Made by a program: the position numbers and the translations under genes
Source of the DNA: a virus
Strand: one strand, 5' to 3'
IMG/VR virus record: IMGVR_UViG_3300033553_000026
Coordinates: 1 to 20,502 of that record
Length of the DNA: 20,502 nt
Shown here: positions 9,730-18,738 of the stretch, one piece after another
Layout of the letters: each line of letters starts with the position of its first letter
Numbering within the stretch: position 1 is the first letter of the stretch
The notes under the pieces: generated by a model
Told to the model about the DNA's origin: nothing
Databases searched by the model: none
Seen by the model: the letters and a program-made list of their open reading frames with translations, nothing else

Positions 9730-10929
9730 TTATACACTAGCCACCTCAAACAAATTCGAGATTTTTCTAAATGCTAATGGTTGTTCTATAACCAATACAT
9801 TGCTTTCTTCTACTCTTGCAGTAATAGCGTTCTTTTGAACGTTATCTACATCCTGCTCAAATAGTTCAACTTTAAGCCCGTCTGTAACGTACTTGTAAGC
9901 CTGTGTCCAATCTCCTACTAATGCAGTTCCTTGTGTGATAAAGGATGCTTTGTAAACCGGCACACCGTTAACCATTAAACGTCCTCCAGTGAATGTTACC
10001 GTACTTGGTAGGGTAAACTCTCCTTCGGATGTTGTTCTGTTTATCGATAAAGTTGCCCAATCTGCCGGGTTGATAACAATTCCATTCACTCCAAAATCAG
10101 CCGCTTCTAATTCTCCAATAGTTTGTACTAAATTAATAATACCATACTCAGTAGATGCAGTTTCATCAATAGAAGCTAAGATGTCCACTAAGAAATCCCT
10201 GTTTTCAGCCTTGAAATAATTACGTCTAAGCATTTCAGGTAATCTTTGTTGCATCCAAGGTAGGTTTCTCATCATTGACTTATGGAAACGGTAAATAGCC
10301 GCTCTATAAGTTGCTGTGAATACTACTGGAGGTGTGTCGAAAACTTGTGCTGGTTTCAAATCACCTTTTGCAACCTCTGCAACCGCATTAGTCGTCGCCA
10401 CTTCTCTCCAAAAGCGTAAAGTATCCTCGCTACCTGTAACCGTACGGATAAGGTTTGAGAAGTTTACAAGCGGTGAAGGAAGGATAACCCCACCGCCTTG
10501 ACGGATAACAGCACCGCCATCTTCATTAGCTAGAGGCGTTTCAACACTTCCGGTTTGGGTGTTATTGGTGTTTATTACAACATCTTTTAACTCCATTGTC
10601 ATTTTCTGACCAATTCCAACGGTTGCAAGTTCGGCTTTACGCTCTTCCAATTCTCTTGAAAATTCACTCTCAAAAGTTTTGTATTCAACGCGCTTTCCTT
10701 CAGCTTTCTTGGCTTTCATTTCTGCTACAACCTTGTCAATTCGGGCGTTAAATTCCGATTTGATTTCTTCGATTTGTGCAGCGTTTGCGGTGTTCATTTT
10801 AGTTTCCGCATCTTTTATCAATTGGGCAGTCTTTGCCTCAATCCCCTCAATGCCTTTTGTTTTTTCAGCAACCTGGGATTTAATTTCATTAAGACCTTTT
10901 TCTATTTGGTCTTTGATTTCGTTTTCCAT
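9730..10929 (-). CDS. HK97-fold major capsid protein
   Basis: A 399-residue protein. Residues 1 to about 95 are charged and strongly helical (coiled coil, from MENEIKDQIEKGLNEIKSQV), corresponding to the scaffolding delta domain cut off by the prohead protease. The body begins around residue 115-150 with VETPLANEDGGAVI and GVILPSPLVNFSNLIRTV and ends with the usual A-domain strands (AITARVEESNVLVIEQPLAF), the pattern of the HK97 capsid family. It sits immediately after the S78 protease gene with a 4-base gap. A hairpin terminator follows it, fitting a high-expression gene. Confidence 0.95.
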   Translation of the reverse strand: MENEIKDQIEKGLNEIKSQVAEKTKGIEGIEAKTAQLIKDAETKMNTANAAQIEEIKSEFNARIDKVVAEMKAKKAEGKRVEYKTFESEFSRELEERKAELATVGIGQKMTMELKDVVINTNNTQTGSVETPLANEDGGAVIRQGGGVILPSPLVNFSNLIRTVTGSEDTLRFWREVATTNAVAEVAKGDLKPAQVFDTPPVVFTATYRAAIYRFHKSMMRNLPWMQQRLPEMLRRNYFKAENRDFLVDILASIDETASTEYGIINLVQTIGELEAADFGVNGIVINPADWATLSINRTTSEGEFTLPSTVTFTGGRLMVNGVPVYKASFITQGTALVGDWTQAYKYVTDGLKVELFEQDVDNVQKNAITARVEESNVLVIEQPLAFRKISNLFEVASV

Positions 10930-11621: not shown

Positions 11622-12386
11622 CTAATTAAGTATTAAATTACCATTAATGTCCCTTACGGGTTCATATCCTATCGTACATCTGCAATTAATTACCTCTTCA
11701 GCCGAGCCTCGTGGGTCTCCCGGATAAGCCAAACCCGTAAAAAAAGTATCGGTTTCAGGTATCGTTGTGCCGTTCAATTCTCTATGAGTTGACCGTTCCC
11801 GTCCATCACCCGCAGCTATCCAAGTTTTATTTAAGTTTAAATTGCTTTCATCCGCCGCCACATTCATTGCGTTATTCATTGCATAAGTGGTTTCGGTTCT
11901 CGCTATCCTTTGAGCTTGCCATTTGTAAAAATCTGGCTTATTTACATAACCATAAATCAAATTCCTTATATCGGTCAAATCTGCATTGACCTCTAAAGAC
12001 TGAATAACAACCCCTGTTAGTTCTTCTAATAAAGTGCCTTTTATTGACCTTATACGACTTCCAATGAGTAGTGATGCGGTGTTCATTACCCAATTATTCC
12101 AAACCTCTGAAAAGAACGGGTTTAACCGTTTTGTTTTCATTACATCTAATTCATTGTATAGAATTGATCCTATTTGACCGCAACGGATATAATGGCTTAA
12201 AAGTTCTTGTTCAAGATTGTTCATTGTAACCGCACTTAATATGCCTTGGTAGTTTTCCTTGTACATATTAGGTAAGTTTGAAAGGTCGCCCCTTAACCCT
12301 CGTACTATTGCACGGGATAAAAGACGCTCATTCCTGCCGTGAAGTGCCTCAAATAGCTTTTTATATTTTCTATTCCTCTTGTTCAT
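11622..12386 (-). CDS. MuF-like head morphogenesis protein
   Basis: A 254-residue protein with the Mu F/SPP1 gp7-type C-terminal domain: RIARTETTYAMNNAMN (about 165-180), a WIAAGDGRERSTHRELNG region, and near the C-terminus INCRCTIGYEP with the conserved Cys-x-Cys. The N-terminal half is helical and not conserved by eye. The ATG overlaps the portal stop by 17 bases. These proteins bind portal or DNA inside the head; no toxin domain is fused here. Confidence 0.9.
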   Translation of the reverse strand: MNKRNRKYKKLFEALHGRNERLLSRAIVRGLRGDLSNLPNMYKENYQGILSAVTMNNLEQELLSHYIRCGQIGSILYNELDVMKTKRLNPFFSEVWNNWVMNTASLLIGSRIRSIKGTLLEELTGVVIQSLEVNADLTDIRNLIYGYVNKPDFYKWQAQRIARTETTYAMNNAMNVAADESNLNLNKTWIAAGDGRERSTHRELNGTTIPETDTFFTGLAYPGDPRGSAEEVINCRCTIGYEPVRDINGNLILN

Positions 12387-13790: not shown

Positions 13791-15002
13791 TTAATAAAAT
13801 ACTTTAAAGTCGGATTTTTTATTTAATTCTGTCAAACCCCACACTAAAGCATCTACCCTGTCGGGTGATTTAGCGTTACTTTCAGGGTTAAAAGATACCA
13901 TTTGATTCTCTAAAATAGGCAGGCTTCCAACGTGGTAAACTAAGTGTTGTTCATAAAGTTGGTAAATAGGCTCTGCACGGGTGTATTTTCCTTTTGTGGC
14001 CGTTACCAATCGGATGAGGTTATTTTTGTCCTCGTTATCTAATACTGCCTTTACCATATCCCCGCCTTGGTTCTTTTCAGCTACATAAAAAGAACAATCA
14101 TAATTCCTAAATGCTTGTGCCGCTACCTTTGCCCATTCTTGCGGGGAATAACGCCCTGAAAGGTCATCTAATACATAATACTTATCATTCTCACACTTAC
14201 CCACCACCACAATACCCGTTTCATCACTTGTTTTGTTTGCGGTGGTTGCCGGGTCAATAGAAACAATGGTTTGCATTAGTTCGGGATGCGCTTTTAACCT
14301 ACATCGTTCAATAATTGCCCGGTTCCATAAAATACCCTCGCTTTCTTCCAACCATTCGCCTAAAAATAAATGTGCATACCTATCAGGGTTTTGTTCTTTT
14401 ACATTGGCTGCGTTATCTAAGTAAGACTGTGAAAGGTTTTGTAAATTATCTTTATAGGTTGTGTGAATGTATGTAGTGTCTTTTCGGGGGACTGAAACGA
14501 AATGAGAATAAATCCAGTGTGTTTTGTTAGATGGGTTCATTACCATTATAACACGGTTTGACTTATTCTTTACACGAATGGAAAGGTCTATTTTATCAAA
14601 GGTGTTTTTATCGGTTAACTCCTCAGCTTCATCCAATACCCAACAAGTAACGCCAACAATTGATTTTAGGTTTGCCGTTGCAGTTCCTTGACTTGTTTTG
14701 ATACCCCTAAATAATATTTTACTCCCTGTTTTTTTGTTTATTATCTCGGTTTGCTTAATCTCAAAGTCATCGTGTAATTGTAACAATTCTATCTTTTCCA
14801 AAAACTCCGGTACAATAGAAATGTGAGCAGATACCATTGTCCAACGGGTAAATAATATTATCTCGTTTTGTTCATAGGTAAGGTTAAGTAAAAAAGTGGA
14901 TACGTGAAAAGATTTAGCAGAACCCCTACCACCGGTTATAAGGAAGTACCTTGTAGGGGATGGGTGTTGGAATAGGGGTTTGTATTTGCTAATCAGTTGC
15001 AT
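13791..15002 (-). CDS. terL: Large terminase subunit (ATPase and nuclease)
   Basis: A 403-residue TerL of the PBSX/T4-type family. The ATPase has Walker A GGRGSAKS (residues 24-31), Walker B CWVLDEAEE (about 120-128, with catalytic Glu), and the coupling motif VMNPSN (about 155-165). The RNase H-like nuclease has IVSIDPATT with its first acidic residue around 248, and DRVDALVWGL near 385 as the final acid. The length is normal. The ATG overlaps the end of the small terminase gene by 14 bases, which suggests translational coupling. Confidence 0.95.
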   Translation of the reverse strand: MQLISKYKPLFQHPSPTRYFLITGGRGSAKSFHVSTFLLNLTYEQNEIILFTRWTMVSAHISIVPEFLEKIELLQLHDDFEIKQTEIINKKTGSKILFRGIKTSQGTATANLKSIVGVTCWVLDEAEELTDKNTFDKIDLSIRVKNKSNRVIMVMNPSNKTHWIYSHFVSVPRKDTTYIHTTYKDNLQNLSQSYLDNAANVKEQNPDRYAHLFLGEWLEESEGILWNRAIIERCRLKAHPELMQTIVSIDPATTANKTSDETGIVVVGKCENDKYYVLDDLSGRYSPQEWAKVAAQAFRNYDCSFYVAEKNQGGDMVKAVLDNEDKNNLIRLVTATKGKYTRAEPIYQLYEQHLVYHVGSLPILENQMVSFNPESNAKSPDRVDALVWGLTELNKKSDFKVFY

Positions 15003-15417
15003 TCCAATGGATGGGAGGTGCGGGTAATTTTTCGCCTTTGGTTGTGTTGTCTACCCTTTCAGTCCATTTGTGATTTGATTTTAAATTAACAATACCAACC
15101 GCTGTCTTTATAATTCCTTTTTTAGTGTTCGAGTAACAATTGCGCTCCATAAGGCGTATAATGTGATTAGATTTAGTTTTAAGAGATGGGTGTCGCTTAG
15201 GAATATCCCTTGTTACAAGTTCGTGATAAACACCAAATGCTAAAGTAAGTTCACCTATAAAATCGTGTTTATATCCCAACACTTTAGAAGCATTCATCCC
15301 CGAACCGATAATATATAAATCTTCCTCTTCAGTTGCTTCTATCATTTCATCTAATAATGATTCAGCTTCTTCTAAGTTCCATTTTTCAGCATTAGTATTT
15401 CCATTGGACGCTCCCAT
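14989..15417 (-). CDS. Small terminase subunit (probable)
   Basis: I choose the ATG at 15417-15415 (142 residues, MGASNGNTNAEKW), whose A is the last base of the upstream stop (TGATG). A TTG one codon upstream would add a single residue. Helical and acidic, with a middle region NHIIRLMERNCYSNTKKG and a C-terminal IVNLKSNHKWTERVDNTT, similar to the W-x-(D/E)..(T/S) ending of many TerS proteins. Its position directly before terL supports the call. It should bind the packaging site and gate TerL. Confidence 0.75.
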   Translation of the reverse strand: MGASNGNTNAEKWNLEEAESLLDEMIEATEEEDLYIIGSGMNASKVLGYKHDFIGELTLAFGVYHELVTRDIPKRHPSLKTKSNHIIRLMERNCYSNTKKGIIKTAVGIVNLKSNHKWTERVDNTTKGEKLPAPPIHWNATD

Positions 15418-15878
15418 CAATCTGTATTTTCTAAAAAATCAATCCAGTCATCGACTGTAGATTTAGGGTTAAAAGTACTTATTTTTATTTGATTATTCAA
15501 AATTATTTTCCAGTTGCTTAACTCCATATCTAAAATATGCCCTGTAATGCCTTGTTCTACAAGTTCTTTTGCGCTTGGATAGTTAGTTGTTATTACCGGT
15601 GTTTTGGCTTGTAATGCTTCTAATATTACGTAAGGGCATCCTTCAGTATCGGATAATTGTACCAAGTAATCATATTGGGATATGTAGTCTTTTGCGTTTG
15701 GATTATATCCTTTAAAAGTAACGCACTTTGCGAAATTCCTTACCATTGCTTGTGCATAGGGTGTAGATATTGACCCGTAAACATCCCATTGTATTGGTTG
15801 GGGTAAAAGTTGGGAAAGTTTCAGCATCCTTACAAAGCCTTTTTCTTTTGATATGCGGGATATGGTTATTAACTTCAT
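15417..15878 (-). CDS. Glycosyltransferase, C-terminal (nucleotide-sugar binding) half
   Basis: A 153-residue protein equal to the C-terminal Rossmann-like domain of a GT-B, family 4-type glycosyltransferase. It begins MKLITISRISKEKGFVRML, the usual start of this domain (R8 and K13 bind donor phosphates), and contains DTEGCPYVILEALQAKTPV with the E-x7-E motif (E79 and E87), followed by the SAKEL.EQGITGHI stretch that contacts the sugar donor. The first domain is encoded upstream by a separate ORF overlapping it by ATGA. Only both parts together would make a whole enzyme of about 295 residues. Confidence 0.85.
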   Translation of the reverse strand: MKLITISRISKEKGFVRMLKLSQLLPQPIQWDVYGSISTPYAQAMVRNFAKCVTFKGYNPNAKDYISQYDYLVQLSDTEGCPYVILEALQAKTPVITTNYPSAKELVEQGITGHILDMELSNWKIILNNQIKISTFNPKSTVDDWIDFLENTD

Positions 15879-16303
15879 AGTAGGTTGTAAATTACTTTGT
15901 CACATTTAAAACCGGTTGTTTCTTCAAACATATTCTTTACGTGGTTGCTTACGCAAACGTGATGGGTTGTTGTAGGGTTCTTTTTATATTTAAAATTCCA
16001 ACCTTCAATATATGCTTTATAATCCGCGTGAACTATTTGAATGGTTTTTGATGCTTTTATATTTGTTGGGGTTATGCTCCGTGCGGTTGCAAGGATGCAG
16101 TAATCAGTTTCGTAAGTTTTGCCGGGATTGTAAGTTTCAATCTCACAATATTTTTTAAGCTCAGATAAATCTGAGGCGGTAAAGGATTTAGAAATGAAGG
16201 TAATTTTATAGTGTGGTGATAATGCTTTAATTGTGTTGAAACAAAAGGTTTCTACACCACCGTAATGATTATAGTTTTGATGGTGAAATATTATTGATTT
16301 CAT
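15875..16303 (-). CDS. Glycosyltransferase, N-terminal (acceptor-side) half
   Basis: A 142-residue protein equal to the N-terminal Rossmann-like domain of a family 4-type glycosyltransferase. MKSIIFHHQNYNHYGGVETF includes the Gly-Gly-V-E loop (residues 15-18) that follows the first strand. Later come TIQIVHADYKAYIEGW and HHVCVSNHVKNMFEE, where the acceptor side of the cleft is usually formed. It stops after KVIYNLL, exactly where the interdomain linker should begin, with TGA overlapping the ATG of the second half. The gap to the AAA ATPase stop is three bases, so it belongs to the same transcription unit. Confidence 0.82.
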   Translation of the reverse strand: MKSIIFHHQNYNHYGGVETFCFNTIKALSPHYKITFISKSFTASDLSELKKYCEIETYNPGKTYETDYCILATARSITPTNIKASKTIQIVHADYKAYIEGWNFKYKKNPTTTHHVCVSNHVKNMFEETTGFKCDKVIYNLL

Positions 16304-17176: not shown

Positions 17177-17676
17177 TTGGATTGGTTAAATTTGTTATAA
17201 GCCTCGCTAATTTGGTCGTTTAATTTTAATCTAATTTCCTCAAATTCCCACAATCCTTTTGAGTGTTTTATAAATTGCTCTTTATTTTCAGATATGATTT
17301 TCATTTGTTCAGCTTCATAAGTTTCAGTCATTGGCTTTAAGTGGTCGGTTTCAATATCCAACAAATTACAAAACTTTTCAAATTCCAAAGTGTTTAAAAT
17401 GCTCCGGTAATTTTCATAAAGCAGTAGTGTTTTAGTGTTAAGGATTCTGTGTAGTTCTTGTTGTGCCGTGTTAGGGTCTTTGTATTTATCGGTTAATATT
17501 GTAAATAAATAACAATACATTTTTGTAAAGAGTATGTTTTCTTTGATGTCGGTCTTTTTAGAGTTGTTAACGTAGGTAACAAGTTCATTAACTGAATCTA
17601 CATCGGTTTGGTTTGGATTCCAAGTTCCGTTTTTTAGTCGCCAGTATAATCTATCTATTGCGTTTTTTAGTGTCAT
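17173..17676 (-). CDS. Hypothetical protein in the replication block
   Basis: A 167-residue, largely alpha-helical protein, rich in Lys, Glu, Asn and Leu, beginning MTLKNAIDRLYWRLKNGTW. A central hydrophobic helix (ILFTKMYCYLFTILTDKY) and a C-terminal charged helix stand out. I do not recognise its family. Both ends overlap its neighbours as ATGA: the DUF1376/DUF4373-like protein upstream and the ATPase downstream. This tight coupling between an initiator-like protein and a helicase suggests an accessory role in replication, for example helicase loading, but no motif supports a specific function. Confidence 0.65.
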   Translation of the reverse strand: MTLKNAIDRLYWRLKNGTWNPNQTDVDSVNELVTYVNNSKKTDIKENILFTKMYCYLFTILTDKYKDPNTAQQELHRILNTKTLLLYENYRSILNTLEFEKFCNLLDIETDHLKPMTETYEAEQMKIISENKEQFIKHSKGLWEFEEIRLKLNDQISEAYNKFNQSK

Positions 17677-18386
17677 AACTGGATTTTTTGTTTTTTAACT
17701 TCTTTTAAGTTGCTAAATTTATCTAAAGTGTCAGACCTACTAAAGTATTCAGCGGTGCAATATTGGTAGTTATTTTCTTTATGATATTCTGAGTCCTTAC
17801 AATTATAAATTGCATTTGCAATATCTTGTTTTGTATAACCCTCTTTTAGCCTTGCTTTTATTTTGCTTCTTATTTTTGAGTTAACAACTCTAAACTCCCT
17901 ATCAAAGACTTTGTTTAGGGTTTCTAAATAAGCATCAAAATTAAAAACAATAGCACCGTTAGGTGCGTTATTATTCTTCTCTTCTCTTCTCTTCTCTTCT
18001 CTTATAGCATTGCCTTCGCTATGCTTTTGCATTGCGTCCGCATCTAAAGTGCCATTTTCATTATGCTTTTCCCATCTTGCTTTTGCAGCATCACTGGCTT
18101 GTTTACTCTTTAAATTAAATTCTTTGAGTTGTTCATCTAAGAAGTGAATAACAATATTTCCATTGTAAATTTTGAGTATATTTTCGTCAGTTAATTCTTT
18201 TAATGCATCCGCATTGCCATTGCATAACTTTTGCAATACATACCTATAAGGTAAATCTCCTAAACGTTGCCAGTAGATAGAAATAATATCAATAAATAAA
18301 CCTTTACTTTCACGGCTGCACATTTGAATTAAACCGTTTTCCCATTCGCTTGGCTCAAATTTAAAATATGGTAGTTCTTTAGCCAT
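17673..18386 (-). CDS. DUF1376/DUF4373-like replication protein
   Basis: A 237-residue protein. Residues 1-105 (YFKFEPSEWENGLIQMCSRE, then GLFIDIISIYWQRLGDLPY) match the N-terminal winged-helix region of phage replication proteins of the DUF1376/DUF4373 type. A charged linker at about residues 130-142 (REEKRREEKNNN) is coded by a pentanucleotide repeat. The C-terminal domain has KIRSKIKARLKEGYTKQDIA, with YTKQDIANAIYNCK near residue 200, a helical repeat found at the C-terminus of such initiators. The gene also holds two copies of a paired 8-base motif and may include the origin, as in the lambda O gene. ATG overlaps the upstream stop (TAATG). Confidence 0.8.
   Translation of the reverse strand: MAKELPYFKFEPSEWENGLIQMCSRESKGLFIDIISIYWQRLGDLPYRYVLQKLCNGNADALKELTDENILKIYNGNIVIHFLDEQLKEFNLKSKQASDAAKARWEKHNENGTLDADAMQKHSEGNAIREEKRREEKNNNAPNGAIVFNFDAYLETLNKVFDREFRVVNSKIRSKIKARLKEGYTKQDIANAIYNCKDSEYHKENNYQYCTAEYFSRSDTLDKFSNLKEVKKQKIQL
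17976..18000. repeat. Five-copy pentanucleotide repeat (CTTCT)5
   Basis: Five perfect copies of CTTCT on the plus strand (AGAAG on the coding strand) within the replication gene. Because the unit is 5 bases, loss or gain of one copy shifts the reading frame. With four copies, I read a TAA stop immediately after the repeat. Confidence 0.95.
18007..18031. repeat. Paired-motif repeat, copy 1 (GCATTGCC and CTTTTGCA)
   Basis: GCATTGCC at 18007-18014 and CTTTTGCA at 18024-18031 are separated by 9 bases. The same pair with the same spacing recurs 204 bp away. A further GCATTGC lies at 18029-18035 and TCCGCAT at 18037-18043. Could be iteron-like, or a product of an internal coding duplication (Q-K-x3-G-N-A in both). 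Confidence 0.7.
18211..18235. repeat. Paired-motif repeat, copy 2 (GCATTGCC and CTTTTGCA)
   Basis: GCATTGCC at 18211-18218 and CTTTTGCA at 18228-18235, again with a 9-base spacer. TCCGCAT overlaps at 18208-18214. The spacers between the two motifs differ between copies, so the motifs themselves are what is shared. Confidence 0.7.
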
Positions 18387-18595
18387 TACTTACGCATTTT
18401 AGATTGAATGTGAAGTAATGTACCTATAAAATCGTGAAGTTCATTTTTATTTAAATCAATATCACAAAAAGATGGTTTTTTAAAATCATCATCATCCCTT
18501 TTTGTAATAAAAATAGTAATAAAAGGCTCGTTTGATTCGTGACGTACTTTGATTGTAGAATCAAATTCATCACCGCTTTGTAGTGTGTATTCCAT
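18386..18595 (-). CDS. Hypothetical 69-aa protein, first gene after the RNA leader
   Basis: A 69-residue protein with beta-rich N-terminal half (YTLQSGDEFDSTIKVRHESN, then ITIFITKRDDDD) and a C-terminal helix LNKNELHDFIGTLLHIQSKM. The LNKNELHDFIGTLLHIQ part resembles small phage proteins of unknown function with a strand-plus-helix layout. It is the first gene downstream of the putative structured RNA and promoter and starts about 20 bases beyond the U-tract. The next gene starts at its stop (TAATG). No function is proposed. Confidence 0.65.
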   Translation of the reverse strand: MEYTLQSGDEFDSTIKVRHESNEPFITIFITKRDDDDFKKPSFCDIDLNKNELHDFIGTLLHIQSKMRK

Positions 18596-18616
18596 AATTT
18601 TAACTTAATTTAATTT

Positions 18617-18671
18617 AAACAAAAAACCCTCTTAGCTTTCGGAAGGCAGTCCTACTCACTAAAAGGGTTTT
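18617..18671 (-). terminator. Intrinsic terminator (3' hairpin of the candidate RNA)
   Basis: The 13-bp stem AAAACCCTTTTAG/CTAAGAGGGTTTT (18671-18659 and 18635-18623) is followed directly by a U-rich tract TTTTTTGTTT (part in the stem end). It should stop transcripts from the recombination block and the short promoter transcript. How much reads through into the 69-aa gene cannot be told from sequence. Confidence 0.75.
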
Positions 18672-18704
18672 ATCCAATCTTTTCTTTGAGTTCCTGCCTG
18701 AACT
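18617..18704 (-). ncRNA. Candidate structured RNA with a kissing-loop pair
   Basis: In the 122-bp gap the minus-strand RNA forms hairpin 1, AGTTC-AGGCAG-GAACT (18704-18689). Hairpin 2 has an outer 13-bp stem (18671-18659 with 18635-18623, one G-T wobble), an internal loop, and an inner GGA-CTGCCT-TCC hairpin (18652-18641). The two apical loops, AGGCAG and CTGCCT, are exact six-base complements. The start falls where the promoter predicts. This could be an independent small RNA or the leader/attenuator of the replication-to-structural operon. I do not recognise a known RNA family. Confidence 0.5.
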
Positions 18705-18709
18705 ATAAG

Positions 18710-18738
18710 CAAATATACTATTTTTTTATCAATTCCAA
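18710..18738 (-). promoter_or_regulatory. Bacteroidota-type promoter upstream of the RNA
   Basis: TATATTTG at 18717-18710 matches the Bacteroidota -7 consensus TAnnTTTG. TTG at 18738-18736 lies 18 bases upstream, an expected distance for the -33 element. The predicted start, a few bases past the -7 box, falls near 18704, the first base of hairpin 1. The promoter overlaps the stop of the winged-helix-like gene. Confidence 0.6.

Follow-up and report, generated by a model that had tools for sequence, protein, structure and literature searches.

A family of promoter-driven RNAs with privately complementary loops in phages of flavobacteria

The stretch of DNA analysed here (the window, 20,502 nucleotides) was taken from IMG/VR and represents a 20.5-kb piece of a tailed phage genome, in which an operon running from replication to structural genes is preceded by a compact element with a promoter, two hairpins with complementary loops and a T-run:

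18710..18732, minus strand: promoter of the Bacteroidota sigma-A type, with TTG at 18732-18730 and the -7 box TATATTTG at 18717-18710
18689..18704, minus strand: hairpin P1 (AGTTC 18704-18700, loop AGGCAG 18699-18694, GAACT 18693-18689)
18672..18688, minus strand: A-rich single-stranded linker between P1 and P2
18623..18671, minus strand: terminator-type hairpin P2, with the outer stem P2a at 18671-18659/18635-18623
18658-18653 opposite 18640-18636, minus strand: internal loop of P2, TGAGTA opposite GAAAG
18652-18650/18643-18641, minus strand: inner stem of P2 (P2b), GGA/TCC
18649-18644, minus strand: loop of P2 (loop 2), CTGCCT
18644..18699, minus strand: kissing (loop-loop) helix, 18699-18694 with 18649-18644, exact complement
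18621..18626, minus strand: T-run of the intrinsic-terminator-like hairpin
18386..18595, minus strand: 69-aa ORF (phrog_7002) directly downstream, a candidate partner or first regulated gene
17673..18386, minus strand: replication-initiation-like protein (Phg_2220_C), the first large gene of the operon behind the putative leader

Between the replication and terminase genes, two overlapping ORFs (15875-16303 and 15417-15878, together 15417-16303 on the minus strand) resemble a single glycosyltransferase divided into an N-terminal and a C-terminal half and might represent a split gene, a frameshift or a true pair.

The promoter consensus and its placement follow the description of Bacteroidota promoters in PMC9723704, where the TAnnTTTG box of F. 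psychrophilum occupies positions -12 to -5 relative to the start. This placement puts the predicted transcript start in the window at ~18705, so that P1 begins near +2; a TAnnTTTG box is found at the equivalent position in nearly all relatives of the RNA. RNAfold returns both P1 and P2 for the window RNA (-26.4 kcal/mol, z = -2.8), and the kissing helix, just 6 bp long and formed by loops shorter than those of most relatives, has a duplex energy of -8.4 kcal/mol. A preliminary description of this DNA had noted the promoter, P1 with its AGGCAG loop and a terminator-like hairpin with the loop CTGCCT; on the minus strand of 18738-18620 this is correct to the base, and the perfect loop complementarity that it reported is likewise exact.

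No Rfam 15 family matches the window at the gathering threshold, the intergenic gap giving chance-level matches only (E up to 10), and no Rfam match coincides with the RNA in 20 loci. A nucleotide search with the gap sequence produced nothing convincing, as would be anticipated for an RNA whose sequence drifts. Relatives were fetched by protein homology to the next ORF (18386-18595, phrog_7002), and therefore, these loci were chosen independently of the RNA. The first three (L002-L004) show the identical layout upstream of the ORF with other loop words, namely, GTGGTAA/TTACCAC, GTGAGAGC/GCTCTCAC and CATCCTAC/GTAGGATG, respectively. The promoter box and a word of 6-10 nt are present at all 31 non-identical phrog_7002 loci, and at each a terminator-type hairpin carries the exact complement of that word in its loop. 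The nearest relatives of the window RNA, L004 and L050, which belong to class II (see below), share with it the P1 stem, the start of the linker (CAAAGAAA or TAAAGAAA) and the TGAGTA internal loop, and differ from it in that both loops in the window are shortened and replaced together.

A descriptor that combines the promoter, an exact word pair and a terminator-type hairpin (with 4 T in 6 as the T rule) matched the window and the 46-kb phage FCV-1 once each, whereas 1.86 Mb of Markov-shuffled sequence gave no match. A relaxed version, with a background of six matches per 1.86 Mb of shuffled sequence, detected the RNA also in loci that lack phrog_7002, many of them before a second family of small ORFs, the protein of which ends in LDKSTAIKFAKTLRTEINKI. 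Within this second family, the RNA is present at 79 of the 80 viral loci, 78 of these by the scan at the expected site and one, L078, with a changed promoter, recovered once the promoter rule was dropped; L123 shows a divergent arrangement only. A chance origin of the layout is rejected by the shuffle nulls of the strict descriptor and of the protein-independent scan described below. The descriptor scan was the main finder because a covariance model of class I (R1, with the pseudoknot left out) finds that class well and catches the window only at E = 0.23. False descriptor matches were discarded (L005@6286, L114 minus, L117 minus and Danklef_1 39178 minus).

Among phage isolates, the RNA is present in those of Flavobacterium, Cellulophaga, Polaribacter, Olleya and Tenacibaculum:

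Flavobacterium phage FCV-1 (L051): RNA at 35886 and 40372
Flavobacterium phage FCOV-S2: RNA present
Flavobacterium phage FCL-2: RNA at 37494
Flavobacterium phage morran9-1 (L052): RNA at 14199
Tenacibaculum phage JQ: RNA at 35967
Polaribacter phage Danklef_1: RNA at 28575
Olleya phage Harreka_1: RNA at 30092
Cellulophaga phage phi10:1: RNA at 10259

The RNA was not seen at the replication gene of Leeuwenhoekiella phage Arctus_1, Riemerella phage PT33 and the contigs L007, L010 and L013, and the bacterial genome contigs scanned with the small-ORF family yielded none, hence no evidence of prophage or host copies.

A scan of nine whole or near-whole viral contigs that made no use of protein homology gave 18 matches against ~0.3 expected (shuffled null, two in 3.76 Mb), and each of the 18 is followed, 7-48 nt downstream, by a same-strand ORF. 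Among the 78 representatives, 77 have an ORF within 61 nt downstream (median 41), the overall distance being about 7-60 nt. The genes behind the copies include the small ORFs, replication genes and NUMOD4-HNH and GIY-YIG homing endonucleases. An ERF-like recombinase, a methylase-like ORF and further small ORFs of unknown kind also follow copies, these three being assigned from a reading of the sequence. With its own promoter, a structured RNA and a same-strand ORF immediately downstream, the element has the makeup of a cis-acting 5' leader. A phage carries up to four copies (the contig G028 has four), each with its own words, and copies within one phage are complementary to each other over 2-5 nt, compared with 6-9 nt for the cognate pair. 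Thus, the earlier view of a single special RNA before the replication-to-tail operon was too narrow.

Several other elements were encountered in these genomes. Upstream of the head maturation protease in FCV-1 (11940-12065) and FCL-2 (11963-12036), there is a promoter, a hairpin, a linker GAAAAAAATATTA and a strong terminator that match the model weakly (E ~0.004). Complementary loops were not seen there, and the element may be either a degenerate relative or a different one. Cellulophaga phage Nekkels_1 (L140:3320-3480) contains an enlarged form of the element, in which ATTGGAA is complementary to TTCCAAT and GTCTAAC to GTTAGAC, and L123:1140-1230 has a similar two-pair arrangement. In morran9-1 (L052:1807-1841), the Rfam DUF805b RNA, a known motif of unknown function, is found upstream of another gene (52 bits).

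P1, P2a, P2b and the loop-loop helix all covary in the relatives. In class I (GTG-type word in loop 1; alignment A4, 29 sequences), 94.7% of the cells are standard pairs and 25 of the 29 pairs show both-sided changes, whereas sliding the partner by 1-3 columns lowers the pairing to 38-42%. The corresponding values for class II (CAC-type word in loop 1; alignment A5) are 90.2%, 22 of 29 pairs and 33-52% for the slid partner. The loop-loop helix is paired at 98.2% in class I and 97.0% in class II, with both-sided change at six and seven of its eight pairs, respectively, percentages that are partly circular because the descriptor selected the alignment rows, unlike the protein-guided locus counts, which are independent of the RNA. 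The two classes swap the types of words between the loops, with AGTGAGA in loop 1 and TCTCACAATA in loop 2, as opposed to TCTCACATTATA in loop 1 and GAAGTGAGA in loop 2. The homologous gaps retain the terminator together with hairpin 1 and the loop complementarity, in different sequence, and the compensatory changes in both stems and both loops, which the preliminary description had named as support for a compact, promoter-driven kissing-loop RNA of ~90 nt, are present in the alignments, so that this proposal is strongly supported by the comparative evidence.

What is conserved is, for the most part, not the sequence. The 78 representatives contain 64 distinct words, and the loops are nearly all different, with no common sequence; the spacing between the words is confined to 45-63 nt, and the lengths of P1 and the linker are conserved. 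Sequence conservation is restricted to the linker and, within subclasses, to the surroundings of the internal loop and the ends of the loops. The linker consensus AA[AG]A[ATC]ATT[AT] is matched at 9 or more of 10 positions in 65 of the 78 representatives, compared with 25% of shuffled linkers; the linker of the window fits it imperfectly (AAAGAAAAGATT). Judged by sequence comparison, the promoter, P1, P2 and the loop 1-loop 2 helix are one conserved architecture. An inverted repeat serving as a DNA operator or origin is disfavoured, given that each word is enclosed by a covarying stem, that these two stems contain G-U wobble pairs and that the element precedes several types of genes. In the loop helix, G-U pairs are almost absent. 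A hammerhead-like core, suggested by TGA...GAAA around the inner stem in the window and L004, was dropped because most members lack this motif.

The terminator is conserved as well. Counted over the 9 nt that follow the last G-C pair, at least six T are found in 91% of the representatives versus 6% of downstream windows; the T-run is weak in a few members, such as FCV-1 (GGGGCTTAACTTTTT). A classical attenuator or riboswitch expression platform was rejected since the alternative antiterminator pairing is absent, the complementarity between the 5' arm of the terminator and the upstream RNA being equal to that in shuffles (mean 4.72 versus 4.75 bp).

The product of the 69-aa ORF behind the RNA is predicted to be a PUR/PC4-like nucleic-acid-binding protein. 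Its model has a beta4-alpha, PUR/PC4/Whirly-like fold (pLDDT 86), with Borrelia Pur-alpha as the best PDB match (TM 0.66, probability 1.0, a weak E-value of 0.04). Whirly and PC4 proteins rank next, among them the PC4 homologue of phage T5. The best match of the second small-ORF family is also Pur-alpha, again with a weak E-value (0.28), and the profiles of the two families show a weak likeness (hhalign E 1.6e-4, probability 50). A nucleic-acid-binding protein encoded by the first gene behind the leader would be a natural autoregulator. Unless it has diverged, the PUR-like protein is not a universal partner because FCL-2 and Danklef_1 carry the RNA, and two hidden Markov models detect no PUR-like ORF in these phages. 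Within the second family (alignment A7, L056-L135), the C-terminus of the protein is nearly invariant (LDKSTAIKFAKTLRTEINKITESEVNNG) and the N-terminal sheet is highly variable, as if diversifying. Downstream of the T-run and ahead of the start codon (ATG) of the LDKSTAIKFA small ORF, a second small covarying hairpin is present in L052 (3259-3305) and most of the L056-L135 loci. It reads TTTAT-CGGT-ATCTTAAA-ACCG-TTA, with the stem variants AGGT/ACCT, CCGT/ACGG, CAGT/ACTG and CTGT/ACAG, and looks like a translational operator.

The RNA probably is a cis-acting, promoter-proximal 5' leader with an intrinsic terminator that sets the read-through into the gene 7-60 nt further on. We propose a leader that gates read-through because the same order of promoter, P1, linker, kissing terminator and ORF recurs before unrelated genes, with no space for a second promoter; that the fold controls termination, and which signal is used, we infer from sequence, in which the family, the fold and the genomic logic are directly apparent. 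The roles initially suggested for this RNA were a small RNA, a decoy or an attenuator, and for the same reasons, the attenuator, or leader, is favoured, whereas a free small RNA or a decoy fares less well. The polymerase would start at ~18705, with P1 folding at once; when loop 2 emerges, P1 would kiss it, and a compact pseudoknot would stand beside the polymerase as the T-run is transcribed and the decision is taken. Either by itself or together with a factor, for which the PUR-like protein encoded next is a candidate, this pseudoknot would shift the balance between termination and read-through. When a phage has several leaders, the private loop words would keep each on its own partner. A more speculative possibility, in which we place limited confidence, is a regulon of privately keyed leaders, where each terminator could be reached only by its own hairpin and a common factor (the host polymerase, or a PUR-like protein expressed from the first leader) would read the kissing architecture rather than the sequence, releasing the operons in order during infection.

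Given the complete gene anatomy, with a conserved T-run, and a conserved, A-rich single-stranded linker that could be a binding site, the element might be a stand-alone ~90-nt small RNA, a regulator, a sponge or an anti-defence decoy, with the downstream gene expressed from transcripts that start further upstream. This appears unlikely because the matches found without recourse to proteins are all just before ORFs, and of unrelated genes at that, and the loops have no common sequence although a trans-acting RNA would be expected to retain the sequence that pairs with its target. RNAs of the put type bind the beta' zinc-binding domain of the polymerase and antiterminate over long distances. It is quite improbable that the folded RNA is a processive antiterminator of this kind, bound to the polymerase and protecting it from terminators further along the operon: the place and the size class match those of HK022 putL (PMC9378689) and the operon here runs from replication to structural genes, but the element has a T-run terminator of its own, additional copies lie a few nucleotides before short units, such as homing endonuclease genes, and the sequence is poorly conserved outside the linker and the subclass-specific positions.

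The pairing could also occur in trans, loop 1 of a free, terminated RNA with the nascent loop 2, to give self-specific feedback on the replication genes or superinfection specificity, or else dimers or rings of the RNA. Both halves of the private pair are present in every RNA and covariation cannot separate intramolecular from intermolecular pairing; nevertheless, we regard this as very doubtful, with intramolecular pairing favoured because the spacing between the words is fixed (45-63 nt), which, along with the conserved lengths of P1 and the linker, is expected of an intramolecular fold, and because copies precede endonuclease and recombinase genes besides the replication genes. Finally, the terminator-type hairpin, the T-run and a P1 that starts at ~+2 would fit a plain terminator of the upstream operon combined with a structured 5' end that merely stabilizes the downstream mRNA, which is hardly plausible at all, given that neither the strictly kept loop-loop helix nor the conserved linker would be needed and that the hairpin follows the promoter, whose own transcript it therefore acts on.

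The cis-acting leader proposed here belongs to a widespread, apparently undescribed RNA family with clear covariation of a pseudoknot. Regulation in these phages has hardly been studied, and culturable carriers are at hand (FCV-1, FCL-2, morran9-1, Harreka_1, Danklef_1, phi10:1 and JQ). If the proposed mechanism is true, a terminator loop that is captured by an upstream hairpin and drifts freely while the complementarity is kept would be a new design of a transcriptional gate; it would offer a handle on the timing of replication genes and homing endonucleases in flavobacterial phages, and gene control in Bacteroidota would gain a compact part that can be re-keyed.

No description of this RNA was found in a literature library that covers few subscription papers and no preprints. 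A structured phage leader is a known kind of element, and the keyed loop-to-terminator architecture is a variant that we cannot place in a known family. Kissing or pseudoknot riboswitches and attenuators share with the present RNA the succession of promoter, structured leader, intrinsic terminator and gene, but the latter has neither a conserved ligand-core sequence in the loops nor an alternative antiterminator helix. The CI immunity RNA of the satellite phage P4 is a processed, trans-acting RNA that is involved in immunity and in termination within the leader. The likeness consists in complementary segments in the leader of a replication operon that are tied to premature termination; the P4 RNA acts in trans, however, whereas here both words appear to belong to one leader, at fixed spacing. 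In phi29 pRNA, which is encoded by one gene at the genome end, loops pair between molecules to form dimers or rings on the packaging motor. As in the present case, there are two mutually complementary loops per RNA that covary between phages, but the RNA described here is internal and occurs as several promoter-terminator copies before early-type genes (replication, endonuclease). The closest functional precedent is put of phage HK022, of which putL, ~70 nt long, folds into two stem-loops, directly follows an early promoter and acts on the polymerase without phage proteins (PMC9378689). The present RNA shares with put the pair of stem-loops and the position immediately behind an early phage promoter, and would likewise act on early-gene transcription; no loop-loop pairing or T-run is described for put, whereas a T-run is found in ~91% of the representatives here, and while put keeps its sequence, the present RNA keeps its architecture, changes its loops and precedes unrelated genes, with up to four copies in one phage.
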